From: Mycobacterium florentinum
GTDB taxonomy: Bacteria; Actinomycetota; Actinomycetes; Mycobacteriales; Mycobacteriaceae
DNA: 64,000 nucleotides
Direction: 5' to 3'
Assembly: GCF_010730355.1 (NCBI RefSeq)
Contig: NZ_AP022576.1
Location: 3,906,001-3,970,000, forward strand
The position numbers were made by a program, and so were the translations under genes. The notes below the pieces were generated by a model that did no database searches, was not told where the DNA came from, and worked only from the letters and a program-made list of their open reading frames with translations. Positions 21,746-41,527 of the stretch are shown piece by piece. Position 1 is the first letter of the stretch, and the number at the start of each line of letters is the position of its first letter.

Positions 21746-21761
21746 AAACAATCACTTGTTT
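21746..21761. promoter_or_regulatory. Shared palindromic operator, mce operon copy
   Basis: AAACAATCACTTGTTT, arms AAACAA and TTGTTT around a 4-base spacer. It lies in the 578-base stretch (21293-21870) between the SMP-30 gene end and yrbEA, which holds no supported gene. The only promoter it can serve nearby is that of the mce operon. On the other strand it reads exactly as the copies at 41512 and, apart from the first base, 27037. Confidence 0.7.
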
Positions 21762-21870
21762 CCGCGACGCTATAGTGTGACGTGAGACCCGTCAAGAGGT
21801 TTCCGCCGGCCAGATCACTAAGCGCGCGGATCGCGCCATCAGATCCGGGAAAACTGAGCCGAGTCGGGCC

Positions 21871-22836
21871 TCATCGCCAGTGCTCCATGGGCATCCCCGG
21901 TACCGGAGACCGCAACATCTGCACCTCTGAGATGCCCAGCCCACCCAAATAGAGCGTCTTCAGATCCGGTCCTCCGAAGGCGATGCTGGACAGGTTGGAC
22001 AAACGAGACCCACGGCTTTGCGCTATTTGATCCCAGGTCAGGCGCCTCTCGGCATGGGTCGCGGAGATCGTATCCAGCTCACTAGGTTCGAAGTCTTCGA
22101 ACAACACGGTCCAAGTCAGATCCGGTGCGACGCGGATCAAGCGGTTGGATATGACGCAGGCGATCCAGAGAGCGCCCTCCGTATCGAAGGCCATGCCATC
22201 GGGGAAGGTGTCTCCCGGGTAGGTGAGCCGGGCGGGATTGCGCAACAAGCCGTCTGCCGTCACGTCGTACCGGGTGGTGCGGCACGCGAAGGTTTCATTG
22301 ACGAAAAGGGACTTGCCATCGGGCGAGATCCGTAGTTCGTTCGTCCAGTTCAGCCCATCTGCCGCAACGCTGACTTTGCCATCCTGCACCAACAGAATCT
22401 GCCCGGTGTTCTCTTCCGCGGTGAAGTGCTCGTGTTTGCGTGCCGACGAGCTGATTGTGATCCAGACCCGATCGCCGTCCACCAGTACGAAATTGGTTCT
22501 CGGAATCGGATTCCCCGCAACCTCTGTCGCGAAGGGGTGGGCCTCACCACGCCGTCCGACCCGCCAGACGCCACCCGCCCTACCCATGTTGGCGAACAAG
22601 AATTCGCCGTCTGCCGTCAACGCGATGCCGTTCGGCCGGAAGCCTTGCGCAATCAGATCTGCCTCGACAGCGGGGCCGGTGGTCCCATCGGGCGCAATTC
22701 GCGCGATGCCGAACGTCCAATCGCCGGTGTAGAGCGATCCATCTCGTGCTGCCAGAACACATTCCGGCCGATTCAGTCCACTGCCGATCTGCGTGAGATC
22801 CGCCGGCAGGAACGGCTCGATCTTGGTCAGCGCCAT
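21871..22836 (-). CDS. SMP-30/gluconolactonase-family protein, probable lactonase
   Basis: A 321-residue beta-propeller protein of the SMP-30/gluconolactonase/LRE family, which hydrolyses lactones using a divalent metal. Typical elements are RPECVLAARDGSLYTGD, the NGIALTADGEFLFANM motif, NELRISPDGKSLFVNE and PDGMAFDTEGALWIA. GGAGAGAAG precedes the ATG. It is the third gene after a Baeyer-Villiger monooxygenase and an SDR on the same strand. A lactonase here would open the ester that such a monooxygenase makes; this role is inferred from context. Confidence 0.85.
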   Translation of the reverse strand: MALTKIEPFLPADLTQIGSGLNRPECVLAARDGSLYTGDWTFGIARIAPDGTTGPAVEADLIAQGFRPNGIALTADGEFLFANMGRAGGVWRVGRRGEAHPFATEVAGNPIPRTNFVLVDGDRVWITISSSARKHEHFTAEENTGQILLVQDGKVSVAADGLNWTNELRISPDGKSLFVNETFACRTTRYDVTADGLLRNPARLTYPGDTFPDGMAFDTEGALWIACVISNRLIRVAPDLTWTVLFEDFEPSELDTISATHAERRLTWDQIAQSRGSRLSNLSSIAFGGPDLKTLYLGGLGISEVQMLRSPVPGMPMEHWR

Positions 22837-22969
22837 GTAGCTTCTCTCCGGATTGCGATGGACAGCAGGTCGCGGTTGGATGGCGATAACTTCAGCGCTC
22901 CAATCGCCGCGATTGCTGTTGTGTGGCGGCTCTATTCGTAGTGGGACGCGCCCAATGCGCCACTGCCGA

Positions 22970-23713
22970 TCAGAGCGCTAGGTAGCCGCCATCGACGGGG
23001 ATCGTCACCCCTGTCACGTAGGACGACATGTCGGAGGCGAGGAACACTGCGGGACCGGCGATCTCATCGGTCTCGCCGACCCGACCCAGCGGCAGTCGTT
23101 GAAGGAATTTATCGCCCGCTGCGCCTTCGACCGTCATCAAGTCACTCTTGATCCGGCCCGGTGCCAGCCCGTTGGCTCGGCCACCCGTCGGCCCAAGCGT
23201 GCGCGCGAAATACTGGACCAGCGAACGGACGGCAGCCTTGGAGGCGCCGTAGGCAGCACTTGATCTCGGCGCGGTGAACCCGGCGATCGACGAAAGGAAG
23301 ATCACGCTTGCGCCGGCGTGCTGCAGCGCGGGGAGCAGGGCAACAGTGATGTCCCACTGTGCGGTGAGATTCACATCGATGACCTGATCCCACTTTTCGG
23401 CCTGATCGGGGTCGTTCGGTCTGATGCGGGGCGCGATGCCCGCGTTGTTCACCAGAACATCGATACTTCCGAATTGCTCCAGCATGCGACCGCCAAAGGC
23501 CTTGACGCCCTCACGGTCACTGATGTCCAGGGTCTCGGCAGAGGCCGAACCGCCGGCGGCCTTGATGCTTGCAACCACGACATCGGCCGCCTCCGTGTTT
23601 CTGTCAACCACTAGGACGCGGGCCCCTTCGGCTGCCAATGCAGTTGAGATGGCAGAGCCCAAACCTCGCCCGCCTCCAGTCACCACCGCCGTCTTCTCGG
23701 AAAGTCGAGCCAT
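22970..23713 (-). CDS. Short-chain dehydrogenase/reductase
   Basis: A 247-residue classical SDR with cofactor motif TGGGRGLG, an aspartate in VVDRN (NAD preference, inferred), NNAG, a serine in LSSIAGF and catalytic YGASK. A strong AAGGAGGAG lies upstream of the ATG. It lies 110 bases after the monooxygenase gene and 133 bases before the SMP-30 gene. It probably oxidises an alcohol intermediate of the same pathway. Confidence 0.88.
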   Translation of the reverse strand: MARLSEKTAVVTGGGRGLGSAISTALAAEGARVLVVDRNTEAADVVVASIKAAGGSASAETLDISDREGVKAFGGRMLEQFGSIDVLVNNAGIAPRIRPNDPDQAEKWDQVIDVNLTAQWDITVALLPALQHAGASVIFLSSIAGFTAPRSSAAYGASKAAVRSLVQYFARTLGPTGGRANGLAPGRIKSDLMTVEGAAGDKFLQRLPLGRVGETDEIAGPAVFLASDMSSYVTGVTIPVDGGYLAL

Positions 23714-23823
23714 AGCCTCTGCTCCTCCTTGATCGAATCACCGGCCAACGCTGCTGGCTGCAACGTGACTTCTTTGCGCACTTGGCGCCATTGCCTCACC
23801 GTGAGAGCCGAAGCCCCGCAGAA

Positions 23824-25461
23824 TCACGACATGATGTAGCCCTTGTAATCGTGGTTGCTCACGTCCTCGCAGTACTCCCGGAACTTGGGAATGCCGCCGG
23901 CGAACAGCAACACCTCGCGCTTGTCGCGACCCTCGATGTTTTTGTTGATCCCGGTGAACCAGGAGTTGGTCTGGCCCAGCAACAGCTTGTCCAGCAGCTT
24001 CGAGCAATAGAGCGAATAGCTTTCGGCCGCGGCAAGTTCGGGTTCGATGCGCTGGATGCCGGCTTCTTTCGCGTGGGCCATCATGTCGCTCAGCCAGTCG
24101 ACGGCGAGCGCGGAACAGCGCGGAATGTTGCAGAAGGTGGCGCCACTCTGCGGCCCGACCAACAGGAAGAAATTGGGAAATCCAGGGCACTGCATGCCCA
24201 TGTAAGTCGTGATTCCGTCAGCCCATGCGTCTTTCAGGTCAACGCCGCCCGGGCCGCGAATGTCGATGCGGTTCCACGAGCCCTTGACCGCGTCGAAACC
24301 TGTGGCGTAGATGATCACGTCGAACTCGTGCAAGGCATCGGTAGTCAGGATGCCTTCGGGCGTGATTCTGGTAATCGGCGTCGTGTTCAGGTCGACAACC
24401 GCGACATTGTCTTGGTTGTAGACCTCGTAATAGTTGGTCTCGAGCGGAACCCGCTTCGTCCCGAAGCCATGATCCTTGGGTATCAGTAGTTCAGCGATGC
24501 GCGGATCCTTGACGCGTTCACGGATTTTTTGCGCCACGAAGTCCGAGACGTATTTATTCGCTGTCGGGTCGGATAGCGCATCCTGATACACACCGAGCCA
24601 CAGCGAGAAGCCTGGCCCCTCATACAGTTCCGCCAGCTTGGCATCGCGCTCTTCTTCCGGAACATCGAACAGGTTTTCCGGAATGAATTCGTGTGGGAAG
24701 CCGGCGATGGACGCATCGCATTTGGCGGTGAACTCGTTGTAGTGCGACTTGATGTAGTCCATCCGCTCCTGCGTCATGGGGCCGTTGCCCAGCGGGGTAC
24801 ACCAGTTCGGTGATCGCAAGAACACCGTCAGGTTCTTGGCTACCTTGGCCATTTCCTGGATCACCTGCACACCCGTCGATCCCACACCGATCACGCCCAC
24901 CCGCTTGCCGGAGAAGTCGAGCTTGGCCGGACCGAACCCGTTGGGGTCGCGCGGCCAATTCGCCGTGTGATAGCTCTCGCCCTTGAAGGTGTTGATGCCG
25001 GGCACGTTGGGCATCTGGGGCGCAGACAGGGGCCCGAGTGCCGAGAAAACGAACCGTGCCGTCACAGGCGCGCGGTACTGCTGCTCGAATTCAAGTGTCC
25101 AGACATTGTTTTCGTCGTCGAACACCGCCCTCTTGACCCTGGCGTTGAAGATGTAATCCTTGCGGATGTCCATGATCTCGACCGCGCGATGGATGTATTC
25201 CAGGACTTCGGGCTGTGCGGCGAAGCGTTCGGACCAGTTCCATTCCTGCTTGAGCTGTTCGCTCCAGAAGTATCCGTAGACTTCGCTCTCCGAATCGATG
25301 CGGCAGCCTGGATAGCGGTTGTGATGCCACACACCGCCCACGTTGTCTGACCCCTCAACCCCCAGTACCCGGTAACCCGTCTCGCGCAGACGATAGGTCT
25401 GATACAGGCCCGTCAATCCCGCGCCGATCACGACAGCGTCGAAGTCGGGTTCTCTCGTCAT
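23824..25461 (-). CDS. Baeyer-Villiger monooxygenase (type I, OTEMO/CPMO-like)
   Basis: A 545-residue FAD/NADPH monooxygenase that inserts oxygen next to a ketone. It has FAD motif GAGLTG (13-18), NADPH motif GVGSTG (192-197) and the type I fingerprint FKGESYHTANWP (159-170, matching FxGxxxHxxxWP). The stretches PNWCTPLGN and IYATGFDAVKGS and the overall length recall the camphor-pathway enzyme OTEMO and cyclopentanone-type enzymes (from memory, not aligned). The ATG at 25461 has AGAGGAAAGG upstream. A shared operator lies about 300 bases upstream at 25768. Confidence 0.9.
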   Translation of the reverse strand: MTREPDFDAVVIGAGLTGLYQTYRLRETGYRVLGVEGSDNVGGVWHHNRYPGCRIDSESEVYGYFWSEQLKQEWNWSERFAAQPEVLEYIHRAVEIMDIRKDYIFNARVKRAVFDDENNVWTLEFEQQYRAPVTARFVFSALGPLSAPQMPNVPGINTFKGESYHTANWPRDPNGFGPAKLDFSGKRVGVIGVGSTGVQVIQEMAKVAKNLTVFLRSPNWCTPLGNGPMTQERMDYIKSHYNEFTAKCDASIAGFPHEFIPENLFDVPEEERDAKLAELYEGPGFSLWLGVYQDALSDPTANKYVSDFVAQKIRERVKDPRIAELLIPKDHGFGTKRVPLETNYYEVYNQDNVAVVDLNTTPITRITPEGILTTDALHEFDVIIYATGFDAVKGSWNRIDIRGPGGVDLKDAWADGITTYMGMQCPGFPNFFLLVGPQSGATFCNIPRCSALAVDWLSDMMAHAKEAGIQRIEPELAAAESYSLYCSKLLDKLLLGQTNSWFTGINKNIEGRDKREVLLFAGGIPKFREYCEDVSNHDYKGYIMS

Positions 25462-25767
25462 CTCAACCTTTCCTCTCATGGCCCGGCGCCGAACATGGTC
25501 GTCGCGGACCGCTCGTGCCGGCGGTGGCCGGGCGCGCGCGTAATGGGTCGGTGGGGCGTCGGTCGGTCGGCCTCGGTCAGGACGGTGCGGATCGGCTTGG
25601 CTCCTAACCGGTTTCCGTGCGTGTCGACGGTCACCGGCGGGAGCTGTCGCGTTCCCGGAACGTCAATCGATGCGCGGTGGCCCCGCCGCAACGGCTATCT
25701 GGCCCGATGCTGTACGGATGCACGACCGCATCGACGACGACGGTGCTATCCAAATCTAGACTCCTCC

Positions 25768-25783
25768 ACACAAGCGTTTGTTT
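25768..25783. promoter_or_regulatory. Shared palindromic operator, monooxygenase operon copy
   Basis: ACACAAGCGTTTGTTT, with one mismatch in the left arm. It lies in the 368-base gap (25462-25829) upstream of the monooxygenase-SDR-SMP-30 genes. No supported gene is seen in that gap. It is also just past the end of the acyl-CoA dehydrogenase gene, so the monooxygenase operon is the likely target. Confidence 0.6.
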
Positions 25784-25829: not shown

Positions 25830-26966
25830 CTAGAGGCCCATCTCTCGGGCGATGATGGTGCGCTGGATTTCGTTTGTTCCGCCGCCGACCATGGCGTGTT
25901 TGGCTTCGCGGAAGTAGCGCTCCATGTCGTATTCGGGCAGCTGAGCGTAGCCGCCGAGGGCTTGCATGCCGTTGAAGGAAACTTTGAAAGCCACATCGGC
26001 CGCGAACACCTTGGCCATCGAGACGTCCTTGAGAGCGTGTTCGCCGCGGGCAAGCTTGGTCGCTGCGCTGTAGACCAGCAGTCGTGCGGCTTCGACCTCG
26101 CACTCATTTTCGGCCATTCGGTGCTTGAGCACTTGAAACGACGACAGCGGCTTCCCGAACTGCGTCCTGTTCTTGGTGTAAGTGATTGTGTCGTCGAGCG
26201 CGGTGCGCGCGTTGCCGACATAGGTGGCCGCCAGCGAAAGTCGTTCCCAGGCAAGGTGACTGTTAACCACCGACCAGCCGTCGCCCGGGGCGCCTATCAT
26301 GTTCTCGGCGGGTATACGCGCGTCGGTGAAGAAGATCTCGGTGGTGCCCAAGCTGCGGCGCACGATGGTGTCGAGCTTGCGAATGTCCACCCCTGAGGTG
26401 GCGTTGGGAACCAAGAACATCGACAGGCCCTTGTGCTTGTCTTCGCCGGTGCGGGCCATCGTGGCGATCACCGTATTCGGCAAGTGAGCTCCCGAACAAA
26501 AAACCTTGTTGCCGTTGAGAATCCACGAGTCACCATCGCGCACGGCTTTGGTGCGCAGACCCGCGGCATCGGAGCCCGCGCCCGGTTCGCTGATCGAGAT
26601 CGAGAACTTCAGCTCGCCGTCCAAAAACGGTGGCAGGTATCTGCGTCGCTGCTCGTCGGTACCGTGGTTGGCGACGTTGGTGGCGGTGAACATCGACGTC
26701 ATCACCGCGGCGGCGAAGTCGAGGCTGTACTTGGCGATCGCTTCGCAGAAGATCGCGTACATGATCGGGTCAGCCGCAAGGCCACCGAACTCTTCGGGGA
26801 TCAGCAACCCCAGCCACCCACGGTCGGCAATCTTCTTGTAAGCCTCATTTGGGAATTCACGGGCTTCGTCGTGCTTGCGGGTGTACTCGACACCGACTTC
26901 TTTCTCCATGAAAGCGTGCACGGTGTCGTGCCACAACTGCTGCTCGGCAGTAAACCGAAAATCCAT
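25830..26966 (-). CDS. Acyl-CoA dehydrogenase
   Basis: A 378-residue FAD acyl-CoA dehydrogenase that introduces the alpha-beta double bond in an acyl-CoA. It has the signature SISEPGAGSDAAG, a TEIFFTDARIPAENMIG segment and RTQFGKPLSSFQ. The base usually at YEGT is glycine here (VGGGTNEIQR), but Glu241 in LAWERL sits where isovaleryl-CoA and long-chain enzymes keep theirs, so the enzyme is probably active. The ATG at 26966 has GGGAG upstream. It is divergent from the CoA-transferase gene, with an operator between. Confidence 0.92.
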   Translation of the reverse strand: MDFRFTAEQQLWHDTVHAFMEKEVGVEYTRKHDEAREFPNEAYKKIADRGWLGLLIPEEFGGLAADPIMYAIFCEAIAKYSLDFAAAVMTSMFTATNVANHGTDEQRRRYLPPFLDGELKFSISISEPGAGSDAAGLRTKAVRDGDSWILNGNKVFCSGAHLPNTVIATMARTGEDKHKGLSMFLVPNATSGVDIRKLDTIVRRSLGTTEIFFTDARIPAENMIGAPGDGWSVVNSHLAWERLSLAATYVGNARTALDDTITYTKNRTQFGKPLSSFQVLKHRMAENECEVEAARLLVYSAATKLARGEHALKDVSMAKVFAADVAFKVSFNGMQALGGYAQLPEYDMERYFREAKHAMVGGGTNEIQRTIIAREMGL

Positions 26967-27036
26967 TAAGGCTCCCTGATTAGCCGCGTCGGCGGGGGTG
27001 TGCGCTGTTGACCACGTTAACAACTTCTGGTACCAA

Positions 27037-27052
27037 GAACAAGTGATTGTTT
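27037..27052. promoter_or_regulatory. Shared palindromic operator, dehydrogenase/CoA-transferase copy
   Basis: GAACAAGTGATTGTTT in the 142-base divergent gap between the acyl-CoA dehydrogenase (start 26966) and the CoA-transferase (start 27109). The position allows control of both promoters. Confidence 0.75.
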
Positions 27053-27108: not shown

Positions 27109-28296
27109 ATGCCTCTGCAGGGCTGCTACCGCAACCTTCGCGTTCTTGATGTCAGCGAAAATATCGCCGGCCCTTTGGCGACCATGATCTTGGCTGATTT
27201 GGGTGCCGACGTCATCAAGGTCGAACGTGCCGGCCGGGGAGACGCCACCCGGTGGCTTCCGCCGCGGCTCGGTGACACCAGCACCGTGTTCGCCACCGTC
27301 AACCGCAACAAACGCAGTGTGGCCCTGGATCTTTCAACTCCGCTCGGTCGCGCTGGGCTGGTGGACATCGCCCGCGGATGTGACGTGGTGGTGGAGTCTT
27401 TTCGCCCCGGTGTGGCCGAGAAGCTGGGATTGGGATTCGACGACGTCAAAGCGGTGCGTCCCGACGTCATCTACTGCTCGATCAGTGCCTTTGGCCGCGG
27501 CGCCCTGGGCCACGACCGGCCCGGATACGATGCGCTGGTGCAGGCCTTTTCCGGCATCATGAGCCTGACGGGATCCCCGGAGGGTCCGCCCGCCCGAACG
27601 GCCCCCTCCGTGGTGGACATTTCCACGGGAATGTGGGCGGCGATGTCGATCATGGCGGCCATGGCCGACCACCCCGCGGGTTCTGGGCCGATGCGCTTGG
27701 ATGCCACACTTGTCGACAGCGCGCTATTTATGATGTGCCACCAAATCGTTGGGCTGCTGGGTGCGGACTACCATCCACAGCGACTGGGCTCCGCCGCCCC
27801 CAGTGCGGTGCCCTACCGGGAGTTCGCCACCAGCGACGGCTCCATCATGGTCGCCGCGGCAACCGATGCATTGTTCGACAAACTCTGCACCGCTATCGGC
27901 GCTGACGATCTGCGGGGTGATGCGCGCTTCGCGACCGCGGAGCAGCGCGTGGAATCCCGGGAAGCGCTCGACGCCGAATTACAGGCCATTTTCCGCGCGG
28001 AGCCCTCGCAGCATTGGCTGTCGGCCGTCGGCAGTGCCGGCGTGCCGGTCAGCGCAGTCCAAACTTTAGAGGCCGCGGTCGGCGATCCGTTGACCCGGGA
28101 GCGTCGGCTGATCACCACCACCGACGCCGACGCGGTACCAACACTGCGGCTTCCGTTGGACCAGCACCGCGCGTTTCCGCTCCGTCCGCCACCGGCGTTG
28201 GGGCAACATACCGAAGAGGTGCTGCGTGAGATCGGCTATACCGCCGACGAGGCTCATACGCTGGCCACAACACACATACCCCAGGTGGCAGGTTGA
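27109..28296 (+). CDS. Family III CoA-transferase (CaiB/BaiF)
   Basis: A 395-residue enzyme that moves CoA between carboxylic acids. It has the N-terminal RVLDVSENIAGPLATMILADLGADVIKVE signature (residues 11-39), NRNKRSVALDL, and the expected nucleophile Asp170 in APSVVDISTG. The ATG at 27109 is preceded by GAGAG. Its stop overlaps the start of the acyl-CoA ligase gene, so the two are coupled. It could activate a pathway acid using an existing CoA thioester. Confidence 0.9.
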   Translation: MPLQGCYRNLRVLDVSENIAGPLATMILADLGADVIKVERAGRGDATRWLPPRLGDTSTVFATVNRNKRSVALDLSTPLGRAGLVDIARGCDVVVESFRPGVAEKLGLGFDDVKAVRPDVIYCSISAFGRGALGHDRPGYDALVQAFSGIMSLTGSPEGPPARTAPSVVDISTGMWAAMSIMAAMADHPAGSGPMRLDATLVDSALFMMCHQIVGLLGADYHPQRLGSAAPSAVPYREFATSDGSIMVAAATDALFDKLCTAIGADDLRGDARFATAEQRVESREALDAELQAIFRAEPSQHWLSAVGSAGVPVSAVQTLEAAVGDPLTRERRLITTTDADAVPTLRLPLDQHRAFPLRPPPALGQHTEEVLREIGYTADEAHTLATTHIPQVAG

Positions 28297-30044
28297 ACCA
28301 ATCGACGATGATGGTCCGCCGAAAGGCACTGGAAGACAAGTACTCCCCGTGGCGGTCGCGGACAACTGCTCAGCTCTTTGATCTGGTGGCTGCCTCAGCT
28401 CCGGATCGGCCCTTTGTGCTGGGCGATACGGACTCGATCAGCTATGCGCAGATGCGTGATCACAGCCGGCAGCTCGCGGGTGGCTTGCTCGCCATCGGGA
28501 TCCGACCCGGTGACCGGGTCGCGATGGACATGGCGAATTCCGCCGAATTCATCGCTCTCAAGCTCGCCACCGCGCGCATCGGAGCCGTGTCCGTGGCCAT
28601 CAATTTCATGTTGCGCCGCGACGAGTTGGCTTACCAGTTGGAGCAATCCGGCGCCAGCGTCCTGATCACGATGGATCAGTTCCGTGGACTGGACTACTTA
28701 GAGTGTCTGGACTCGATCGCACCGGGCTGGGAACACGGTGTCAACACCAACCGGCTCCCCGAACTGCGGCATATCTTCGTGCACCCGGTGGACAACCCCA
28801 CACCGGCGCGCGGCGCGCCGCTGTCGTGCCTGGCGCAGGCCGGCGCGACGGTCCCACAAGGCCTGCTCGACCATCTAACACAGGGTGTCGATCCGGCCAG
28901 CGTCTCTGACATAATCTACACCTCGGGCACCACCGGTCGGCCCAAAGGCGTTATGCTGGTGCATGATTCGGTCGTACGGATGGCGTACGGTTCGGCCTAC
29001 GCCCGGGCCTTCCAGGATGGCCGCCGGATCGCCACCGCGCTGCCGATGTATCACGTCTTCGGCTATGTCGAAGCGATGATCGCCGCTGTGATAGTCGCTG
29101 GTGCGGTGGTCCCGTTCGCCGCGTTCGAGCCGGCGGCGATGCTGCAGGCCGTCGCCCGTCACCGGGTCGATGAGCTGATCGCGGTGCCGGCGATGACCTC
29201 CCGCCTGCTCGATGAGGCTGAGACCGGCCGCTACGACCTGTCGCATTTGAGCACCATGTTCTCCTCGGGGACCCGCCATGCCCCGCAGATGTGGCAGCGG
29301 ATGATGGACGTCTTGGGTGTCGACGAGCTGTTCACCGCCTACGGGCAGACCGAGACCACGGCATCCACGGCGTGCACCCTGCCCGGGGACCCGCTGAGTC
29401 GGCTGCAGACCACCAACGGCACGATCAAGCCCGCCGGAGTGGCCGGCGACCCCGCCGTCGGTGGAGGACTCGCGGCGTACAAGGTGGTTGCGCCCGACAC
29501 CGGCGAAGAACTCGGCGCAGGCCAGATCGGGGAATTTGTCGTACGCGGCCCCGCGGTCAGCCCCGGATATTTCGACAAGCCAGCCGAGACGGCGCAAGCT
29601 TTCACCGCCGACGGATGGCTGCGCACCGGCGACCTTGGCCGCATCGACCCCGACGGATATCTGGTGCTGACCGGCCGCATCAAAGAGTCCTACCGCTTCG
29701 GCGGCGAATTGGTGCTGCCCTCCGAGGTCGAAGAGGTGCTGGGCCGCCACGCTGCCGTCAAGGCCGCCCACGTCGTCGGGCTGCCCCACGCGCGGATGGG
29801 TGAAATCGGTTGCGCGTTCATCGTGCCAGCCGAGGGTGCCGTGGTAGAAGAGGCCGAGCTGCTGGCTTACTGCGCAGAATCTCTGGCGCGATTCAAGGTT
29901 CCCGCTCACGTGCTGGTGATCGATGAGTCAGAGCTCCCCACCACGGTGACGGGGCGGGTGCAGAAATTTCGTCTGCTACAGCGCGCAACCGCGACACTGG
30001 GCAACATTCCCGGTACGTGCACAGGCACAATGGAGCGTGCGTGA
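28293..30044 (+). CDS. Acyl-CoA ligase (AMP-binding, ANL family)
   Basis: A 583-residue adenylate-forming ligase that converts an acid to its CoA ester with ATP. It has the P-loop YTSGTTGRPKG, YGQTETTAS, WLRTGDLGRIDPDGY and a C-terminal catalytic lysine in TGRVQKF. The TTG at 28293 gives a four-base overlap with the CoA-transferase stop; ATG at 28308 or 28311 are alternatives. The acid substrate is unknown; the regulon suggests a cyclic or branched acid. Confidence 0.9.
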   Translation: MNQSTMMVRRKALEDKYSPWRSRTTAQLFDLVAASAPDRPFVLGDTDSISYAQMRDHSRQLAGGLLAIGIRPGDRVAMDMANSAEFIALKLATARIGAVSVAINFMLRRDELAYQLEQSGASVLITMDQFRGLDYLECLDSIAPGWEHGVNTNRLPELRHIFVHPVDNPTPARGAPLSCLAQAGATVPQGLLDHLTQGVDPASVSDIIYTSGTTGRPKGVMLVHDSVVRMAYGSAYARAFQDGRRIATALPMYHVFGYVEAMIAAVIVAGAVVPFAAFEPAAMLQAVARHRVDELIAVPAMTSRLLDEAETGRYDLSHLSTMFSSGTRHAPQMWQRMMDVLGVDELFTAYGQTETTASTACTLPGDPLSRLQTTNGTIKPAGVAGDPAVGGGLAAYKVVAPDTGEELGAGQIGEFVVRGPAVSPGYFDKPAETAQAFTADGWLRTGDLGRIDPDGYLVLTGRIKESYRFGGELVLPSEVEEVLGRHAAVKAAHVVGLPHARMGEIGCAFIVPAEGAVVEEAELLAYCAESLARFKVPAHVLVIDESELPTTVTGRVQKFRLLQRATATLGNIPGTCTGTMERA

Positions 30045-31260: not shown

Positions 31261-31276
31261 TAACAAGCGTTCGTAT
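31261..31276. promoter_or_regulatory. Possible degenerate second operator
   Basis: TAACAAGCGTTCGTAT. The left arm AACAA and spacer GCGT match the copy at 25768, but the right arm TCGTA matches only three of five positions. It lies about 50 bases upstream of the TetR start, which would suit autoregulation. The call is weak. Confidence 0.3.
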
Positions 31277-31350: not shown

Positions 31351-31368
31351 TGACAGGAGGGAGTGGTG

Positions 31369-33850: not shown

Positions 33851-33865
33851 CAGAAAGACGACGTC

Positions 33866-34252
33866 ATGACCCAATCGTTGACCGATGAGTACTACGCGGG
33901 CCTCGGCCGCGGCGAGCTGTTGATCCAGCATTGCAACGCGTGCGGCACCAACATCATGTACCCCAAATACGTGTGCCCGCCTTGCGGCAGCCGCGATCTG
34001 GGATGGGCCCGCTCGTCCGGGCACGGCACCTTGCACAGCTTTACCGTCCAACGTGTCGGTGCGCCAGGCGGTTTCGAAGACGAGTTGCCGTATGCGCTGG
34101 GGGTGGTCAAGCTCGACGACGGCGTGCAGTTGCTGGGCCGACTGCGCCCCGACAGCAGTGGTGGCTGGGACAGCTACTCCTGCGACGTGCCGGTGCGTTT
34201 TGATCCCACACCGGACCAGGGGCGTCACATCGCCTGGTTCACAGCGGCGTGA
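33866..34252 (+). CDS. DUF35 zinc-ribbon/OB-fold protein
   Basis: A 128-residue protein with a rubredoxin-like zinc ribbon (CNACG and CPPCG, two CxxC pairs) followed by an OB fold with GHGTLHSFTVQRV and LPYALGVVKLDDG. Members of this family bind and complete the active site of Ltp2-like thiolase-fold partners, here the gene just upstream. Its stop overlaps the next ligase start. Confidence 0.9.
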   Translation: MTQSLTDEYYAGLGRGELLIQHCNACGTNIMYPKYVCPPCGSRDLGWARSSGHGTLHSFTVQRVGAPGGFEDELPYALGVVKLDDGVQLLGRLRPDSSGGWDSYSCDVPVRFDPTPDQGRHIAWFTAA

Positions 34253-35895
34253 CGCCTGCTATGACGGCCACACCGGAGATGAATGCCGCGCGCTTTTTGC
34301 AGAAATCGGCGACCCGTTTCCCGGAGCGTCCAGCCATCAGCTACGGCACCGCCAGCTATAACTACCGCGAGTTTTACCGACGCGCCCGCAGTCTGGGCGG
34401 CGAGTTGCGTGCCCGCGGTCTCCGCCACGGTGACCGGGTCGCGTTCGCGTTGTACAACAGCCCCGCAGTGCTGGAAACCATATTCGGCTGCTTTGCAGCC
34501 GGATTGGTAGTCGTCCCGATGAACGCGCGCCTGCATGCCAAGGAGATGGGTTACATCGTCCGGACATCCGGGGCGCGGGTGCTCATCCACGGTGCAGAGT
34601 TCAGCGCCGAGATCGACCGCAACATCGACGACTTCGGATCACTGGATGGACGTTTCGAAGTTGGCGAGGCGGCCGCGGTGGAGCAGTCTGATGGCGCGAT
34701 GGTGGAACCCTATGGCGCACTGCTGGATTCCCGGCATCCCTTAGATGAGCCTGTCGAGATCACCGGTGATGACGCCGCCTGGCTGTTCTACACCTCGGGC
34801 ACCACCGGCCGGCCCAAGGGCGCGATATGGACCCACCGCACCATCCGGGTCGTCGTGATGAACTACCTCGCTGATGTGTACAACACCACCGAAGACGACG
34901 TGGTATTGCATGCCGCGCCGTTGTCGCACGGTAGCGGGATCGTCGCCTTGCCTGCGGTGGCGCGCGGGGCAACCAATGTCATCCTCGAAGCCACCAGCTT
35001 CTCACCCGAGAATCTCTTCGAAACCGTAGAACGGCAGCGTGTTTCGCAGATTGCGTTCTTGGCGCCGACCCAAATCGTGGCCCTCCTCGACAAGTACGAA
35101 CCAGACCGCTTCGACCTGACCAGCCTACGTATGGTGTGCTACGGCGGCGCACCGATCTATGTGGAGCAGCTCAAGGCTGCGATATCGGCCTTCGGGCCGG
35201 TGTTTGCGCAAATCTACGGCCAAGGCGAAGCGCCGATCACCATCTCCGGCATGACCCGTGAGATGCATGCCCATTTCGCCGACACCGATGATCCGCGGCT
35301 GGGTTCGGCGGGGCCGGTCCGCACCGACGTCGAGGTTCGTATCGTCGACGCCGACGGAAACGCGCTGGCACCAGGCCAACTCGGCGAAATCGCGGCACGC
35401 GGTGATGTGGTGATGCGCGGATATTGGGCGGATCACGAGGCGACCGAGGCGACAATCCGCGACGGCTGGCTGCACACCGGCGACATCGGCACGTTGGACG
35501 AGCGCGGCTATCTCTACCTGCTGGACCGCACCAAGGACACCATCATCACGGGAGGCAACAACGTCTACCCGCGGGAGGTCGAAGAGATCTTGATCGCCCA
35601 CCCCGGCGTCGCCCAGGTTGTGGTGTTCGGGATACCCGACGCCTATTGGGGTGAGGCGGTCCACGCCGTGGTGGTTCGTCACCCCGACAGCGAGGTGTCC
35701 GAACGCGAACTCATCGATTACTGTGCCAAGAGCTTGGCGGGCTACAAAAAGCCCAAAGCCGTTGAATTCGTTCACGCATTGCCGGTCAGCGGCTATGGCA
35801 AGGTGCTACGCCGACAGGTGCGGGAACGGTACTGGTCGGACCGCGACCGCAAAATCGGCGGAGGTTCCCGCCCCGAGCACGTATCGGTGACCTGA
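34249..35895 (+). CDS. Acyl-CoA ligase (AMP-binding, ANL family)
   Basis: A 548-residue ATP-dependent ligase with P-loop YTSGTTGRPKG, IYGQGEAPIT in place of the usual YGxTE, WLHTGDIGTLDERGY and a C-terminal lysine in SGYGKVLRRQ. The GTG at 34249 overlaps the DUF35 stop (GTGA); ATG at 34261 is an alternative. This is the second ligase of the regulon, so two different acids are probably activated, for example before and after ring opening. Confidence 0.9.
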   Translation: MTPAMTATPEMNAARFLQKSATRFPERPAISYGTASYNYREFYRRARSLGGELRARGLRHGDRVAFALYNSPAVLETIFGCFAAGLVVVPMNARLHAKEMGYIVRTSGARVLIHGAEFSAEIDRNIDDFGSLDGRFEVGEAAAVEQSDGAMVEPYGALLDSRHPLDEPVEITGDDAAWLFYTSGTTGRPKGAIWTHRTIRVVVMNYLADVYNTTEDDVVLHAAPLSHGSGIVALPAVARGATNVILEATSFSPENLFETVERQRVSQIAFLAPTQIVALLDKYEPDRFDLTSLRMVCYGGAPIYVEQLKAAISAFGPVFAQIYGQGEAPITISGMTREMHAHFADTDDPRLGSAGPVRTDVEVRIVDADGNALAPGQLGEIAARGDVVMRGYWADHEATEATIRDGWLHTGDIGTLDERGYLYLLDRTKDTIITGGNNVYPREVEEILIAHPGVAQVVVFGIPDAYWGEAVHAVVVRHPDSEVSERELIDYCAKSLAGYKKPKAVEFVHALPVSGYGKVLRRQVRERYWSDRDRKIGGGSRPEHVSVT

Positions 35896-35897
35896 CA

Positions 35898-37070
35898 ATG
35901 AGCCGTGTCTACATCGCGGGCGCCGGCATGACGCCGTTTGTCAGCCGCGCGGAAACCGCAGTGCGGCAGCTGGCCCAGTCGGCGGCCTCGGCGGCGCTCG
36001 CTGACGCCGGTGTCACGGCGGCCGAGGTGCAGCGTGTCTATTTTGGCAACGCGGCCGACGGCCTGCTCACCGGCCAGGAGATGATCAGGGGACAGGTCGC
36101 GCTGCGCACGTCCACGCTGGCCGGCACCGCAGTGATCAATGTCGAAAACGCCTGTGCCTCGGGCAGCAGCGCTGTGCTTGCGGCCTTCGATGCCGTCAAG
36201 GCCGGTCGCTGCGATGTGGCGTTGGCGCTGGGTGTCGAGAAGCTGTCGAATGAGAACCGCCACCGCACTTTCGCAGCGATCCGTGGGGCCACCGACATCG
36301 GCGCACTGGATCCCGCCGATTCCCAGGCGGTGCTGACCAGCTCGGCGTTGCTCGATGTCTACGCTGAAGAGGCCCGCGATTACCTGCAGAACCACGACGC
36401 CACGGTGGCGGACTTCGCAGCCGTGGCAGTGAAGAACCGACAACACGCCGCTCTTAACCCGTTGGCCCAGTACCAAAAGCCGCAAAGTGTTGAGGACGTG
36501 CTCAACTCACGCATGATTGCGGACCCGTTGACGCTGCCGATGTGCTCACCCACCACCGACGGGGCTGCTGCGGTGGTGGTGGTGTCCGAGTCATTCCGCC
36601 ACCGCGCGGGAGGACCGGCCTGTGAGATCAAGGCCATCGAGCTGACCGCGGGAACCGGCGCCGGCTCAGCACCGGTGGCCCGTGCCGCCCATGCCGCGTA
36701 TAACTCGGCGGGACTCGGGCCCACCGATCTGGACGTCATTGAACTCCACGAGGCCGCAGCGCCCTCAGAGGTGCTGCAGTACGCCGAAATCGGGCTCTGC
36801 GCCGAAGGCGACGGTCACTATCTGATCCGTTGCGGCGCAACAGCACTCGGGGGAACTATCCCTGTCAATGTCAGCGGGGGACTACTTTCGCGCGGACACC
36901 CGTTGGCCGCTACCGGGTGCGCGCAGCTCGTCGAACTGTTCGACCAGCTCACCGGGCGTGCCGGTGACCGTCAGGTCAGCGGCGCCGCGATCGGTCTCGC
37001 GATCAATGCCGGCGGCTGGCTGGGCGGTACCTACGCGACCGCTGTCGCCACGATCTTGGCCACTGCCTGA
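35898..37070 (+). CDS. Thiolase (acetyl-CoA acetyltransferase family)
   Basis: A 390-residue thiolase that releases acetyl- or propionyl-CoA from a 3-ketoacyl-CoA. Nucleophile Cys86 lies in ENACASGSS, HEAAAPSE stands in for the HEAF block, and GGLLSRGHPLAATG carries the catalytic His; the last cysteine block is less clear. Unlike the gene at 32645, the main catalytic elements are intact. It starts two bases after the ligase stop. Confidence 0.92.
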   Translation: MSRVYIAGAGMTPFVSRAETAVRQLAQSAASAALADAGVTAAEVQRVYFGNAADGLLTGQEMIRGQVALRTSTLAGTAVINVENACASGSSAVLAAFDAVKAGRCDVALALGVEKLSNENRHRTFAAIRGATDIGALDPADSQAVLTSSALLDVYAEEARDYLQNHDATVADFAAVAVKNRQHAALNPLAQYQKPQSVEDVLNSRMIADPLTLPMCSPTTDGAAAVVVVSESFRHRAGGPACEIKAIELTAGTGAGSAPVARAAHAAYNSAGLGPTDLDVIELHEAAAPSEVLQYAEIGLCAEGDGHYLIRCGATALGGTIPVNVSGGLLSRGHPLAATGCAQLVELFDQLTGRAGDRQVSGAAIGLAINAGGWLGGTYATAVATILATA

Positions 37071-37078
37071 AGGAGTTG

Positions 37079-37915
37079 ATGGGGGACCCCATGGTCGAGC
37101 ACTTGGAAACACTGTTCTACGAGCGCCTCGAAGGTGCGGTGGTAGTTGTCACCCTCAACCGGCCCGATCGAGGCAACGGTGTGGTTCCCGAGTTGGCGCG
37201 CGACCTGCTCGCCGTCTTGACTTTGCTTGAGGGCGACACGAGTGTCCGCGCAGTCGTCCTGACGGGGGCAGGTCGGCAGTTTTCAGCCGGCGCCGATCTG
37301 AAAGCGATGAAGGGCTATCTGGAGCAGCATCACAAGGTTGAGCACGAGCCCTACAACGCGCGTGTGTTGTTTCCCGTGACTCAACGTGTGGTGGCATCGC
37401 GGTTGCCGATCATCGCAGCGATCAACGGCGGGGCCACTGCGGGCGGTTTGGACCTGGCGCTGGCCTGCGACTTGAGAGTCTGTTCGACAGTGGCCAAGCT
37501 CGGTGAGACCTACATCAACCTCGGGCTTCCACCCGGCAACGGCGGCTCCTATTTTCTGCCGCGGCTGATCGGCTCGGGAATGGCCGCCGAACTTGCGCTG
37601 ACCGGTGAAGTGATCGGGGCTACGAAAGCGTTGCAGATCGGGCTGGTGAACAAAGTCGTCGAGCCCGACGAGCTACTGCCCACCGCGGTCGGTCTGGCAC
37701 GCACAATCGCCGCAAAATCCCGGCGCGCCGTCGAAGCGACAAAGCAAGCTTTGCGGTCATCGTGGCAAGTCGACCTGGCCACCTCGATGGTCCAATCCTT
37801 TTGGGCGGTAGCGGCGTTGCACTATGGACCAGACCTGGCCGAGGGGGTCGATGCATTCCTGGAAAAGCGTGATGCGCGGTTCAACGGGGATGCGCCGCCC
37901 ACCGGTATGCCATGA
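37079..37915 (+). CDS. Enoyl-CoA hydratase/isomerase family protein
   Basis: A 278-residue crotonase with VVTLNRPDRGNG, the oxyanion block SAGADLKAM and GGLDLALACDL. The two glutamates used by classical hydratases are changed: the first position is Asp (GGLDLA) and the second is Tyr (GETYINLGLPPG). It may be a hydrolase, isomerase or lyase rather than a standard hydratase. AAGGAG precedes the start; ATG at 37091 is an alternative. Confidence 0.85.
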   Translation: MGDPMVEHLETLFYERLEGAVVVVTLNRPDRGNGVVPELARDLLAVLTLLEGDTSVRAVVLTGAGRQFSAGADLKAMKGYLEQHHKVEHEPYNARVLFPVTQRVVASRLPIIAAINGGATAGGLDLALACDLRVCSTVAKLGETYINLGLPPGNGGSYFLPRLIGSGMAAELALTGEVIGATKALQIGLVNKVVEPDELLPTAVGLARTIAAKSRRAVEATKQALRSSWQVDLATSMVQSFWAVAALHYGPDLAEGVDAFLEKRDARFNGDAPPTGMP

Positions 37916-37930
37916 TGACGAGTGGTCGCC

Positions 37931-38527
37931 ATGAATAAGCTCGAACTGACACCGGAAGTCGCCGCCACCCGGCAGGCAATCCTTGAGGCAGCCACCACAT
38001 TGCTGGGGGAGCGCGACTACCCGGCGACCTCGATCCGCGATATTGCCCGCGCGGTTGACCTGCTGCCGGGCCGGATGTACGACTTCATTGAGAACAAAGA
38101 AGCCATCCTCTATGAGATAGTCGCGACCGGGATCAACCGCTTCGTCTCGATGGTCGACGCCATCGCCGATGATCGTCAGCCTCCGGACGCACAGTTGCGC
38201 CGCGCAATCATCGACCACGTGAAATTGGTATCTGAGAACCCGCGGGCGGTGCTCGTGGTCTTTCACCAATGGCGATATTTGGGTACCGAGAACCGGCGCC
38301 GCGTCATCGCGCTGCGCCACCGCTACGAACAGTTCTTTCGTGACACGGTGGAAGCCGGCATCGCAGACGGGTTGTTGCGCCAGGATCTCGATGTGCAGTA
38401 CGCGGTCTTTTCCATCCTCGGTGCGCTCAACTGGGTCCCTGAATGGCTGACGCAACACGATCCACAGACGCAGAACTATGCTGAAAAACTTGCTGACGTG
38501 CTGCTGTCCGGCGTGCTAGTGCGTTAG
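37931..38527 (+). CDS. TetR-family repressor, paralogue of the 30614 regulator
   Basis: A 198-residue TetR regulator with helix-turn-helix ATSIRDIARAVDLLPGRMYDF and the same ligand-domain marks as the first TetR (VVFHQWRYLGTENR, ILGALNWVPEW). It is the last gene of the eight-gene hydrolase operon, so it is probably controlled by the operator at 31335. The start is uncertain between the ATG at 37931 and a GTG at 37922. Whether it binds the shared operators or a separate site is unknown. Confidence 0.9.
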   Translation: MNKLELTPEVAATRQAILEAATTLLGERDYPATSIRDIARAVDLLPGRMYDFIENKEAILYEIVATGINRFVSMVDAIADDRQPPDAQLRRAIIDHVKLVSENPRAVLVVFHQWRYLGTENRRRVIALRHRYEQFFRDTVEAGIADGLLRQDLDVQYAVFSILGALNWVPEWLTQHDPQTQNYAEKLADVLLSGVLVR

Positions 38528-38537: not shown

Positions 38538-39278
38538 TCAGACCGCGGTGTAGCCGCCATCAACCGCAATGGCCTGCCCGGTGATGAACGATGATTCGTC
38601 GGATGCCAAAAACAATGCCACTGTTGCGATCTCGTCAGCACCGGCGATCCGGCCCTGCGGGGTCGCACTTTTCACGCCCTGAATAAGGGCCTCCGGAAGG
38701 CTTTTCGACATACCGGTGTCGATCACGCCGGGCAGGATCACGTTGGCCCGAATACCTTGGGTGGCGTACTCCACTGCGGCGTTCTTGGTCAACATCACTA
38801 CCCCGCCCTTGCTGGCACAGTACGCAGACATTTTTGGGAACGCGACATTGGCCGCGATGGAGGCGGTGCTGATGATCGATCCGCCACCACCTTTCAGCAT
38901 GACCGGGATGCCGTACCGCATGCCCAGAAACGGCCCGGTAAGGTTCACCGCGAGGACTTGGTCCCAGTCCTCGAGCGCGTAATCTCCGGTTAGCGCCAGC
39001 TTGCCGTCGATGCCGGCATTGTTGAACAGGACGTCAAGCTTGCCGAACGTTGTCACGGCCGTCTCGACCATCGTCTCTACATCGGCAGCTTTCGAAACGT
39101 CGGTCTGTACGCTGATAGCGTTGTCGCCCAGGTATTTCGCGAGTCTGTCCTGTTCGCCGGAGATGTCCGCGAGCACGACCTTGGCGCCCTCGCGGTAGAA
39201 CAGCTCCGCAGTGGCGGCACCCATTCCCGACCCAGCGCCGGTGATGATCGCGACCTTGCCATCCAATCTTCCAGGCAT
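38538..39278 (-). CDS. Short-chain dehydrogenase, candidate hydroxyketone dehydrogenase
   Basis: A 246-residue SDR with TGAGSGMG, an aspartate in VLADIS (NAD preference, inferred), NNAG, a serine in STASIAA and catalytic YCASK. It is transcribed away from the P450-ferredoxin genes, with one operator 20 bases upstream of its start. In camphor-type pathways a dehydrogenase oxidises the P450-made alcohol to the diketone that the hydrolase opens, and this gene is well placed for that step. Confidence 0.9.
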   Translation of the reverse strand: MPGRLDGKVAIITGAGSGMGAATAELFYREGAKVVLADISGEQDRLAKYLGDNAISVQTDVSKAADVETMVETAVTTFGKLDVLFNNAGIDGKLALTGDYALEDWDQVLAVNLTGPFLGMRYGIPVMLKGGGGSIISTASIAANVAFPKMSAYCASKGGVVMLTKNAAVEYATQGIRANVILPGVIDTGMSKSLPEALIQGVKSATPQGRIAGADEIATVALFLASDESSFITGQAIAVDGGYTAV

Positions 39279-39298
39279 TCCCGCACTCCCTTGTCCAA

Positions 39299-39314
39299 GA
39301 ACAATCGTTTGTTA
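39299..39314. promoter_or_regulatory. Shared palindromic operator, SDR copy
   Basis: GAACAATCGTTTGTTA, about 20 bases upstream of the SDR start at 39278. It is one of two copies in the 282-base divergent gap between the SDR and the P450 gene. Confidence 0.7.
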
Positions 39315-39504: not shown

Positions 39505-39520
39505 AAACAGATGATTGTTT
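39505..39520. promoter_or_regulatory. Shared palindromic operator, P450 copy
   Basis: AAACAGATGATTGTTT, ending 40 bases before the P450 start codon. The spacing from the copy at 39299 is about 206 bases, so each divergent unit has its own site. Confidence 0.7.
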
Positions 39521-39560: not shown

Positions 39561-40796
39561 ATGACCCAGCCGGATATCCAACCCAATGACCACGTCGCCG
39601 CGGGTGAGGCACTCAAGGGCCGGTACGGGCGCGACATGTTCAACGATTTCGACATCGACGACCCGATGTTCAATGAGCACTTCTTCGACATTCTCGATGA
39701 GATGGTGACCAAATGCCCGGTCGTGCGTAGCAACGTCGGGGCGGGATATTGGATGGTCACCCGACAGGAGGATGTCCGCCGCGTCGGTCAGGATTGGCGC
39801 ACGTTCTCCAGTGCGAAGGGCTACCAGCCGAACAGGCCGGAGGGCTTGCCGTACCTGATGCCCGAGGAGTCTGACCCGCCCAAGCACACTCGTTGGCGCA
39901 CCACACTGAACCCGTATATGAGCCCCAAGGCCGTGGCCAAGTATGAGGACCAAATCCGTAGTGACGCCAACATTTTGATCGACCGCTTCATCGACAACGG
40001 CGAATGTGAATTCGTCGGTGACTTCGGGTCGAAGCTGCCCGGTTGGGCCTTCTTCAAAAACGTGTTGGGTGTGCCCATCGACGACCTCGATATGCTGGTG
40101 ACCGGCGTGGAAAACGGGACATTCGCCCCACCGGAGGAGCGCGCGGGCCATTTCGCGGAGGTCTTTGACTACCTCGGAAAGTATCTGGCGTTGCGCAAGG
40201 ATGAGCCGCCGCGCGGCGATCTGGTCGATGTCATCGCCGCGGGGGTCGAATACGAAGACGGCCAACTTGCGCCCTGGGACGACCGCGTCAGCATCTTGGT
40301 TGACCTGACCTTTGGTGGCATCGCGACCACCACCTATGTGATGGCTGGTGCAATCCTCCACCTTGCAACCCATCAGTCCGATCGCGAGGCGCTCGTTGAC
40401 AATCCGGAGCTGATCGCCGGCGCCGTCGAGGAGTTCGTCCGGGTGTTTCCGCCGGTGGTCGCGCTCGGGCGCACCTGCACCAAGGATGTCGAGGTAGCCG
40501 GAACCCAGATGAAAGAGGGCGACTTCGTTCTGCTCGGTTACGGTTCGGCCTCACGCGATCCACGTGTGGTTGACGACCCCACCACAATCAATATCATGCG
40601 GGATACTGTGCTGCACAGCGCTTTTGGGGTGGGCCAGCACCGGTGCATCGGCTCTAACCTGGCCCGGCTTGAACTACGGGCCACATTTGAAGAATGGCTG
40701 CGACGAATCCCTGACTTCGGCGTCAAGCCCGGCACCGCGCCAACCTACGAAACCGGCATTTTGCGCACGATGAAAGACCTACACCTGGTTTTCTGA
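39561..40796 (+). CDS. Cytochrome P450
   Basis: A 411-residue soluble bacterial P450 that hydroxylates its substrate using electrons from a ferredoxin. The heme-ligand block FGVGQHRCIG holds Cys362, and ExxR lies in EEFVR. In the I helix the usual [AG]Gx[DE]T reads GGIAT, so the acidic residue (Asp251 of P450cam) is Ala255 while Thr256 is kept. That is unusual and may affect proton delivery. AGAGGAG precedes the ATG, and the ferredoxin follows by 28 bases. The family number cannot be assigned by eye. Confidence 0.93.
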   Translation: MTQPDIQPNDHVAAGEALKGRYGRDMFNDFDIDDPMFNEHFFDILDEMVTKCPVVRSNVGAGYWMVTRQEDVRRVGQDWRTFSSAKGYQPNRPEGLPYLMPEESDPPKHTRWRTTLNPYMSPKAVAKYEDQIRSDANILIDRFIDNGECEFVGDFGSKLPGWAFFKNVLGVPIDDLDMLVTGVENGTFAPPEERAGHFAEVFDYLGKYLALRKDEPPRGDLVDVIAAGVEYEDGQLAPWDDRVSILVDLTFGGIATTTYVMAGAILHLATHQSDREALVDNPELIAGAVEEFVRVFPPVVALGRTCTKDVEVAGTQMKEGDFVLLGYGSASRDPRVVDDPTTINIMRDTVLHSAFGVGQHRCIGSNLARLELRATFEEWLRRIPDFGVKPGTAPTYETGILRTMKDLHLVF

Positions 40797-40824
40797 AGCG
40801 CCTCAGAGAGATTGGTGAATCGGC

Positions 40825-41019
40825 ATGAAGGTAGAGGTCAACGAACAGTGCTCGGGACATGGGCGCTGCTACATCCTGGCCCCCGAGGTCTATCGATTAG
40901 ACGACGACGGCTACAACGCCGACCGCGGTCAGATCATCGACGTCACCCCCGGTCACGAGGATGCAGCTGAGCTCGGCATCCACAATTGCCCCGAGGCGGC
41001 AATCAAAGCCGTTGATTGA
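40825..41019 (+). CDS. Single-cluster ferredoxin with CxxHxxC motif
   Basis: A 64-residue [3Fe-4S]-type ferredoxin. The cluster motif is Cys9-x2-His12-x2-Cys15 with Cys55-Pro, so the second cysteine position is histidine. Ferredoxins with a non-cysteine residue there are known as P450 partners in mycobacteria. It lies just after the P450 gene and is its likely electron donor. The ferredoxin reductase is not in the window. Confidence 0.92.
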   Translation: MKVEVNEQCSGHGRCYILAPEVYRLDDDGYNADRGQIIDVTPGHEDAAELGIHNCPEAAIKAVD

Positions 41020-41108
41020 TGCGCGCATGTCGCCGGTTCGCACTCAGAACGGCTGCAACGCATTCCAAGGGGATCTGGTCAGCAAACAAAAAGCCGTGCG
41101 GGTGACGT

Positions 41109-41240
41109 CATTTCACGCCCGTCGGGTCGGGGCCGTCGTGCATCCGGACCACAAACATCGTCCAGTTCGACTTCAAGACGAAGATCGCGCTGAACTCCCA
41201 GCGGCCCTTTGAAGACACTTTCACGGCAACGCTGAACTAG
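41109..41240 (+). pseudogene. Possible coding remnant
   Basis: An open stretch ending NIVQFDFKTKIALN then QRPFEDTFTATLN and a TAG at 41240, with protein-like composition unlike the arginine-rich alternative frames. An in-frame stop at 41103 cuts it off upstream and no start codon or ribosome binding site is seen. It lies in the 623-base gap between the ferredoxin and the second cassette. It may be the tail of a deleted gene; I recognise no family. Confidence 0.25.
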
Positions 41241-41511
41241 GGCGCACCTCGGACGTTAGCGAGCGGTGCGTCGTCGCGGCTGCGTCGACAGGGGTATCAC
41301 CACACGCCACCAACCCCTCTCGGGGCATGGCCACACTGCCTGATATGGCGTCCCGGCGCGTCGGATGCGAATTGAGCAGAGCAACGACGCATGCCGTACG
41401 GGAATCGGCGATGGCCAGCGAAGCCTGGCGGACGGGCGCCGCAAAACGCCTCGCGTGACCTGAACCACAGCCGCCCCTTGACGGGCCCTCAGTCACACGT
41501 TAATGTCGTGG

Positions 41512-41527
41512 AAACAAGTGATTGTTT
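41512..41527. promoter_or_regulatory. Shared palindromic operator, second cassette copy
   Basis: AAACAAGTGATTGTTT, about 115 bases upstream of the membrane-protein gene at 41643. Identical to the reverse complement of the mce copy at 21746. It brings the second membrane/COX3/COX4 set into the regulon. Confidence 0.72.

Follow-up and report, generated by a model that had tools for sequence, protein, structure and literature searches.

A palindromic operator family of a Mycobacterium florentinum catabolic island recurs in two phyla and is probably read by a KstR2-like TetR repressor

In a 64,000-nucleotide stretch of the Mycobacterium florentinum genome (contig NZ_AP022576.1, positions 3,906,001 to 3,970,000; the window, to which coordinates refer unless a genome is named), a catabolic island carries seven copies of one palindrome. 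These constitute an operator family that lies between genes, is concentrated in the island within its genome and is found again, with orthologous genes and regulators, in islands of Actinomycetota and Pseudomonadota. Judging from the sequence, the seven palindromes are likely operators of a KstR2-like TetR repressor, most likely the one we call TetR1; its binding, the repression and a coenzyme A (CoA) thioester as signal are what we infer from this arrangement.

Seven operators in the island

A search of the window for RAACAANNNNTTGTTY, i.e. RAACAA-N4-TTGTTY, with at most one mismatch returned seven matches and no further ones, compared with a mean of 0.15 and a maximum of 1 in 100 dinucleotide shuffles of the window. 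The preliminary description of this DNA had listed seven copies of the element, and all seven were found in place at this tolerance, but only three of them are exact (21746, 27037 and 41512). At each of the others (25768, 31335, 39299 and 39505) one base departs from the pattern, and the inner core deviates at 31335 (AACGA) and 39505 (AACAG).

21746..21761, minus strand: operator 1, exact, AAACAAGTGATTGTTT on the minus strand; before the yrbE/mce importer operon, with a TTGAC box 34 bases upstream
25768..25783, minus strand: operator 2, one mismatch; before the genes for a Baeyer-Villiger monooxygenase (BVMO), SDR1 and an SMP-30-like protein
27037..27052, plus strand: operator 3, exact; between divergent genes for acyl-CoA dehydrogenase (minus) and CoA-transferase/CoA ligase (plus)
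31335..31350, plus strand: operator 4, one mismatch; between TetR1 (minus) and the long CoA operon from ECH1 to TetR2 (plus)
39299..39314, minus strand: operator 5, one mismatch; before SDR2
39505..39520, plus strand: operator 6, one mismatch; before the cytochrome P450 and ferredoxin genes
41512..41527, plus strand: operator 7, exact; before an oxidase-subunit-like cassette, perhaps on the same transcript as the SnoaL-like gene
31261..31276, minus strand: possible eighth, weak operator, TAACAAGCGTTCGTAT, about 48 bases before TetR1

All seven sites were judged intergenic, as had been claimed, with GTG 41643 taken as the start of the oxidase cassette. Site 41512 lies within a mechanically called open reading frame (ORF) at 41391-42425, and an AAGGAG box precedes GTG 41643, likely the true start of this gene. 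The earlier proposal that one element ties together a transporter, two oxygenases, CoA-ester enzymes and an oxidase-subunit cassette was supported: one operator family stands before an Mce importer, a P450, a BVMO, CoA-ester enzymes and the cassette.

We also scored the window with a matrix built on 33 relatives' sites that had been selected using the preliminary pattern at one mismatch allowed. The seven operators took ranks 1-7 with scores of 20.3-28.0, followed by the possible eighth at 14.3 and then by 8.0; the best score over 20 shuffled windows was 17.2. The window contains no Rfam family at gathering score and no tRNA gene.

Within the genome (6,219,859 bases), 26 places match at one mismatch or less, seven of them in the island, while the pattern read backwards, our control, gives 13; all three exact copies in the genome are in the island. 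The 19 places outside correspond to an expectation of about 0.07 for 24 kb, a stretch chosen after the fact. Equal abundance elsewhere in the genome, which had been named as a refuting outcome, is thus not what the scan shows. Twelve of the 19 off-island places were examined: each lies under an open frame of 157-928 codons, which is weak coding evidence in GC-rich DNA, and with the relatives' matrix they score from -2.6 to 17.6, 11 of the 12 below 10.

Recurrence in related islands

A DNA search of plasmids gave 17 records and, among the matches listed, one related island, on pR8L1 of Rhodococcus sp. 008, the only strain among the plasmid records with a BVMO above 60%. A BVMO scan of genome contigs gave 75 loci, ten at 80-84% identity and the rest at 56% or less; hosts of the ten include Nocardioides, Aeromicrobium, sphingomonads, Rhodoferax and others. 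The motif is present in all 11 loci whose BVMO is about 80% identical or more (the ten contigs and the Rhodococcus plasmid), with 1 to 8 matches each and 36 altogether, some in overlapping registers. Among the distant BVMO loci it occurs in 6 of 65, once each.

An unbiased count of all perfect hexamer palindromes with spacers of 0-8 in these 11 loci and the island, for which the preliminary motif was not used, placed AAACAA-N4-TTGTTT first, with 18 perfect copies in 9 of the 12 loci; three shuffles reached at most 3 loci, and the runner-up, in 5 loci, was a shifted form of the same motif. The motif had been expected before orthologous genes, and in the relatives' islands it is: the same genes follow the sites in several of them, namely P450 or SDR2, BVMO, CoA-transferase, acyl-CoA dehydrogenase with ECH1, thiolase 2 and MaoC. 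Many of the relatives' sites lie inside longest-ORF calls, which begin at the first available start codon. All eight sites of the annotated Rhodococcus record are between genes. Genome-wide, all 8 places of N. gansuensis cluster within 34 kb of a single contig (control 2), and the island contig holds 5 of 8 places in Aeromicrobium (control 0) and 6 of 11 in Nocardioides Root1257 (control 2).

An independent route led to a further island. Searching 397 genomes of the order with TetR1 gave two at E 1e-40, the source genome and one designated G846 (44%); in the genus, TetR1 was found in 1 of 148 genomes at E 1e-25. In G846 (6.1 Mb), found through TetR1 alone, all six exact motif copies belong to its island and fall within 29 kb of a single contig, and at one mismatch 9 of 23 places fall in the same 35 kb (control 3). 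The exact copies are located in 39 kb of DNA with 71% GC and in the continuation of this stretch. The island (G846:C13:77818-112920) carries CoA-ester genes, a SnoaL gene and two L-type TetR genes, and neither a P450 nor a monooxygenase was matched at E 1e-12 in the 51.6 kb read. Because this island has the CoA core without such matches, the operator appears to accompany the regulator and the CoA core rather than the oxygenases. The upper pathway may be exchangeable; the regulator appears to have spread jointly with its switch and the pathway.

To speak of a regulon as a trait of the genus would be misleading, since a close oxygenase (BVMO at E <=1e-180) is found in 1 of 396 genus genomes, that of the source alone, and in 3 of 394 class genomes, yet occurs in contigs of Actinomycetota and Pseudomonadota. 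Patchy among close relatives and with 80-84% identical BVMO homologues in both phyla, the island has the marks of a horizontally moving catabolic island. In a tree with several forks open, the window BVMO falls outside a clade of six other actinobacterial copies.

The regulator

Two TetR genes lie in the island, and both products match TetR_N and TetR_C_24 (PF17932) above gathering scores.

30614..31213, minus strand: TetR1, KstR2-like TetR repressor (PF17932) with helix GILPGSVYAHI; predicted as the likely operator reader
37922..38527, plus strand: TetR2, paralogue of TetR1 (37-41% identical) with helix DLLPGRMYDFI; last gene of the CoA operon

The two had been named side by side as proteins to test for binding, but they are not equivalent: TetR1 keeps the recognition helix common to motif-bearing islands and TetR2 does not. 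At least one TetR with the helix G[IVL]L[PA]GS[LV]Y[AT]HI is present in each of the ten motif-bearing islands with a TetR in view, the window included; loci L020, L022 and L028 have no TetR within the stretch covered, and an extra TetR in N. gansuensis has the helix GIRPGSLYSHI. As for a KstR2-like repressor, the operator is repeated at the regulator and target promoters. We chose TetR1 as the reader because of its helix and location.

Promoter geometry

Of the 43 matches in the window and the 11 loci, 34 gave 38 rows that were oriented by hand from gene direction; the nine places left out comprised those with an unclear target gene, those in an overlapping register and one near-copy. In 17 of the 38 rows a TTGAC occurs between -36 and -24, and in 5 it is on the wrong side (shuffles: mean 0.48, largest 4). 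A second, unoriented set of 27 places was made up of seven of the nine left out (all but two overlapping registers) and 20 from other stretches, and has TTGAC on either side in 7 (shuffles: mean 0.49, largest 3). A TTGAC at this distance would put the operator at about +1 and behind, and this geometry is best explained by a repressor that covers the transcription start.

A second operator dialect

Two islands with a 78% BVMO, in genomes G406 and G446, carry TetR helices of the form G[VL]QPGSLYAHI. An unbiased palindrome count in the two put CGAACG-N2-CGTTCG first, with 5 perfect copies; the next had 3. This palindrome stands before the BVMO gene in both and before a TetR gene in G406 (L105-L106 of G406, L107-L108 of G446), and imperfect copies stand before the CoA-transferase gene. 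In the tree, again with several forks open, G406 and G446 group as sisters of the copies from Rhodococcus, Nocardioides and Aeromicrobium, within the motif-bearing set, and because they nest there the switch to CGAACG-N2-CGTTCG looks derived. Drawn from two islands, the apparent change of dialect is a lead.

Genes of the island

The remaining genes are listed below, with those under operator 1 first.

20423..21352, minus strand: yrbEA, Mce permease (MlaE family), first gene of the importer operon
11850..20413, minus strand: yrbEB (19538-20413) and six further collinear ORFs, two of them shown to be Mce (17106-18242, 18169-19581) and four assigned from position
21871..22836, minus strand: SMP-30/gluconolactonase-like protein, possible lactone hydrolase
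22970..23713, minus strand: SDR1 dehydrogenase
23824..25479, minus strand: BVMO; nearest solved relative OTEMO of the camphor pathway
25830..27023, minus strand: acyl-CoA dehydrogenase
27109..28296, plus strand: class III CoA-transferase
28293..30044, plus strand: AMP-binding CoA ligase 1
31363..37915, plus strand: CoA operon, with ECH1, MaoC, thiolase 1, a small protein weakly like BbsA, CoA ligase 2, thiolase 2 and ECH2
38538..39278, minus strand: SDR2 dehydrogenase
39561..40796, plus strand: cytochrome P450; best solved matches an ancestral CYP125 construct, then CYP101-type chains
40849..41016, plus strand: ferredoxin match following the P450; 54% over 56 residues with the Rhodococcus island ferredoxin
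41643..43346, plus strand: oxidase-subunit-like cassette, with a membrane protein lacking a Pfam match, a COX3-like and a COX4_pro-like protein
43398..44072, plus strand: SnoaL-like protein, 61-66% to homologues in other islands

We take the small protein of the CoA operon to be of the DUF35 type. The cassette behind operator 7 holds its membrane protein, COX3-like and COX4_pro-like genes without the remainder of an oxidase, and BLAST with its proteins found no counterpart in the relatives' stretches searched. The stretch first described ended at 41527; the set probably extends to the SnoaL-like gene ending at 44072, whose homologues occur in other islands. A gene for a GGDEF-domain protein (44391-45521) adjoins this end.

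In those islands inspected for it, the importer behind the operator differs: here it is an Mce operon, Rhodococcus has an MFS gene, N. gansuensis a Liv-type ABC set and Rhodoferax a Liv-type binding protein, the last two operators with one mismatch. Around the nearest yrbEA homologues in the genus (73-84%), the motif at one mismatch or less was found in none of 11 loci, with flanks of about 1.5 kb on each side, one shorter; one of the 11 has a place with two mismatches. Either the window Mce copy was brought under the operator or the other copies lost it. In the leader between operator 1 and yrbEA (21630-21760, minus strand), one frame ends in AAYDCPTESIAVTG followed by a stop; this tail is presumably ferredoxin-like and looks to us like a ferredoxin remnant.

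Weighing the alternatives

Several observations weigh against TetR1-mediated repression at these sites. First, two sites are distant from the gene start, by 394 bases (yrbEA) and 289 bases (the Baeyer-Villiger gene). Second, the off-island place G000:C1:1270963 (AAACAAACGCTGGTTC) scores 17.6, not far below the weakest island site, and is possibly a further member of the set; the off-island check spans 12 of the 19 places. Third, in seven Pseudomonadota hosts the one-mismatch pattern is little or not enriched genome-wide, with place-to-control counts of 30:32 (G764), 28:26, 22:21, 61:37, 32:17 (G768), 40:33 and 30:27. Fourth, no motif at one mismatch or less occurs within the 35 kb examined of the G406 and G446 islands; 18 kb past that stretch, the G446 contig carries one exact copy, and G406 has none nearby. 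Fifth, 21 of the 38 oriented and 20 of the 27 unoriented rows lack a TTGAC box at this distance, several rows nearly duplicate others, and no enrichment of -10 boxes was seen, the best offset of TANNNT having 5 rows against a shuffle maximum of 7. Lastly, as whole proteins, eight of ten relatives' island regulators are nearer TetR2 (39-45%) than TetR1 (34-41%), two being slightly nearer TetR1, and both G846 regulators are nearer TetR2.

This last comparison would fit TetR2, which is also the last gene of the CoA operon, as the main reader, with TetR1 as a second regulator of part of the set. We regard this as unlikely, though it is the strongest of the alternatives, given that the TetR2 helix DLLPGRMYDFI departs from the shared pattern and that it is TetR1 that keeps the helix and adjoins operator 4. 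With its changed helix, TetR2 is probably an auxiliary or re-targeted paralogue.

Some TetR proteins activate, and the sign of regulation at the palindromes is here a prediction from sequence; they might be activator sites or a promoter element. The dyad symmetry, the position behind rather than upstream of the TTGAC box and the link with TetR genes make this quite improbable.

A similarly slight probability attaches to control of the island by the resident KstR2 through degenerate KstR2 boxes. KstR2 is encoded elsewhere in the source genome (397 bits to PDB 4w1u), and its published motif, AnCAAGnnCTTGnT (PMC3068626), shares the CAA-N4-TTG geometry: by hand count, AACAAGTGATTGTT departs from it at a single fixed position and the seven sites at 1 to 3. 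Yet none of the nine exact KstR2-motif places in the genome is at an island promoter. Three are at genome positions 4265603-4273110, one of these directly before kstR2, and one is at window position 16799, within ORF 15769-17199. KstR2 is only 26% identical to TetR1, which is not its orthologue, and the operator recurs in Pseudomonadota islands with their own TetR. KstR2 was therefore rejected as the island regulator.

Chance is refuted by counts far above shuffles, by recurrence with unlike flanks in two phyla and by recovery in G846 through the regulator, and the same evidence leaves next to no probability for a repeat spread by copying of intergenic DNA, although copying is a possible origin of some sites, since a 24-base family containing the operator is 71-83% alike at 4 of the 7 (its fifth member, 31021, at 67%, is no operator).

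Mechanism and significance

Under repression by TetR1, a dimer bound to operators at or just behind the transcription start would block the promoter. With substrate entering the pathway, one of its intermediates (a CoA thioester, most likely) would bind the repressor and free the operators, and importer, oxygenases, CoA-ester enzymes and the repressors themselves would be switched on together. The thioester is proposed because KstR2 binding is released by HIP-CoA, as stated in PMC8700777.

A broader picture, which we hold to be about as apt to stand as to fall, is that of a portable code: a KstR2-like TetR and its AACAA-N4-TTGTT operator would have passed between Actinomycetota and Pseudomonadota together with a CoA-ester catabolic core, hosts adding different importers (Mce, MFS, Liv-type ABC) and upper-pathway oxygenases. 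One actinobacterial branch would have rewritten the code to CGAACG-N2-CGTTCG with a leucine-to-glutamine change in the helix, so that operator and reader would be co-evolving. Two dialects with matching helix changes offer a natural test case for TetR-DNA recognition.

The operator family is unusually widespread, being found in very different bacteria of two phyla, and a defined operator gives a means to seek an uncharacterised catabolic pathway in other genomes. By linking an Mce importer with one particular and presumably inducible pathway, it also helps to clarify which cargo each Mce system transports. With its ligand identified, the regulator could be used as a sensor.

Comparison with known systems

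The closest solved chains of the oxygenases point to the camphor (CAM plasmid) pathway of Pseudomonas putida, the comparison covering BVMO and P450: the best solved relative of the BVMO is OTEMO (618.7 bits over residues 8-549; next 461.9), and the P450 is near CYP101-type chains (P450cam). This oxygenase set weakly suggests an alicyclic, perhaps terpenoid-like substrate. We considered an abscisic-acid or ionone-type ring, which we assume would fit the trimethyl-ring substrate of OTEMO and the thiolase/MaoC set; the known users named in PMC7996341 are a Rhodococcus and a Novosphingobium. Literature searches on mce/BVMO/terpene, abscisic acid, SMP-30/P450, geosmin, camphor and cineole gave no matching cluster among the matches listed. 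A search with six spelled-out operator forms gave no match in the papers covered; the survey of mycobacterial TetR motifs PMC4482099, whose motif column lay outside the text searched, may hold one.

EdcR, the oestrogen-pathway repressor of Caenibius tardaugens, is likewise a TetR-type repressor whose palindromic operator overlaps the promoters of a catabolic cluster, according to PMC8700777, but its operator, TnnCnnTACnAnTnGTAnnGnnA, differs from the island palindrome and is there reported in one relative and not in two others.

In operator geometry and TetR type, the nearest known system is KstR2. The preliminary description had set the palindrome apart from the KstR2 site; read as unrelatedness this goes too far, the two sharing the CAA-N4-TTG geometry and both island TetRs matching the C-terminal family PF17932. 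The KstR2 regulon, the HIP branch of cholesterol catabolism in mycobacteria and Rhodococcus, likewise has a TetR repressor and a 14-base palindrome with a CAA-N4-TTG core between divergent CoA-ester operons, and the KstR2 recognition helix (GILSGSLYHHF) is like that of TetR1 (GILPGSVYAHI). In the island operator, by contrast, the outer AA/TT is nearly fixed and the inner G/C is not, and the island has its own TetR, other genes and a horizontal spread, with the KstR2 regulon separately present in the same genome.

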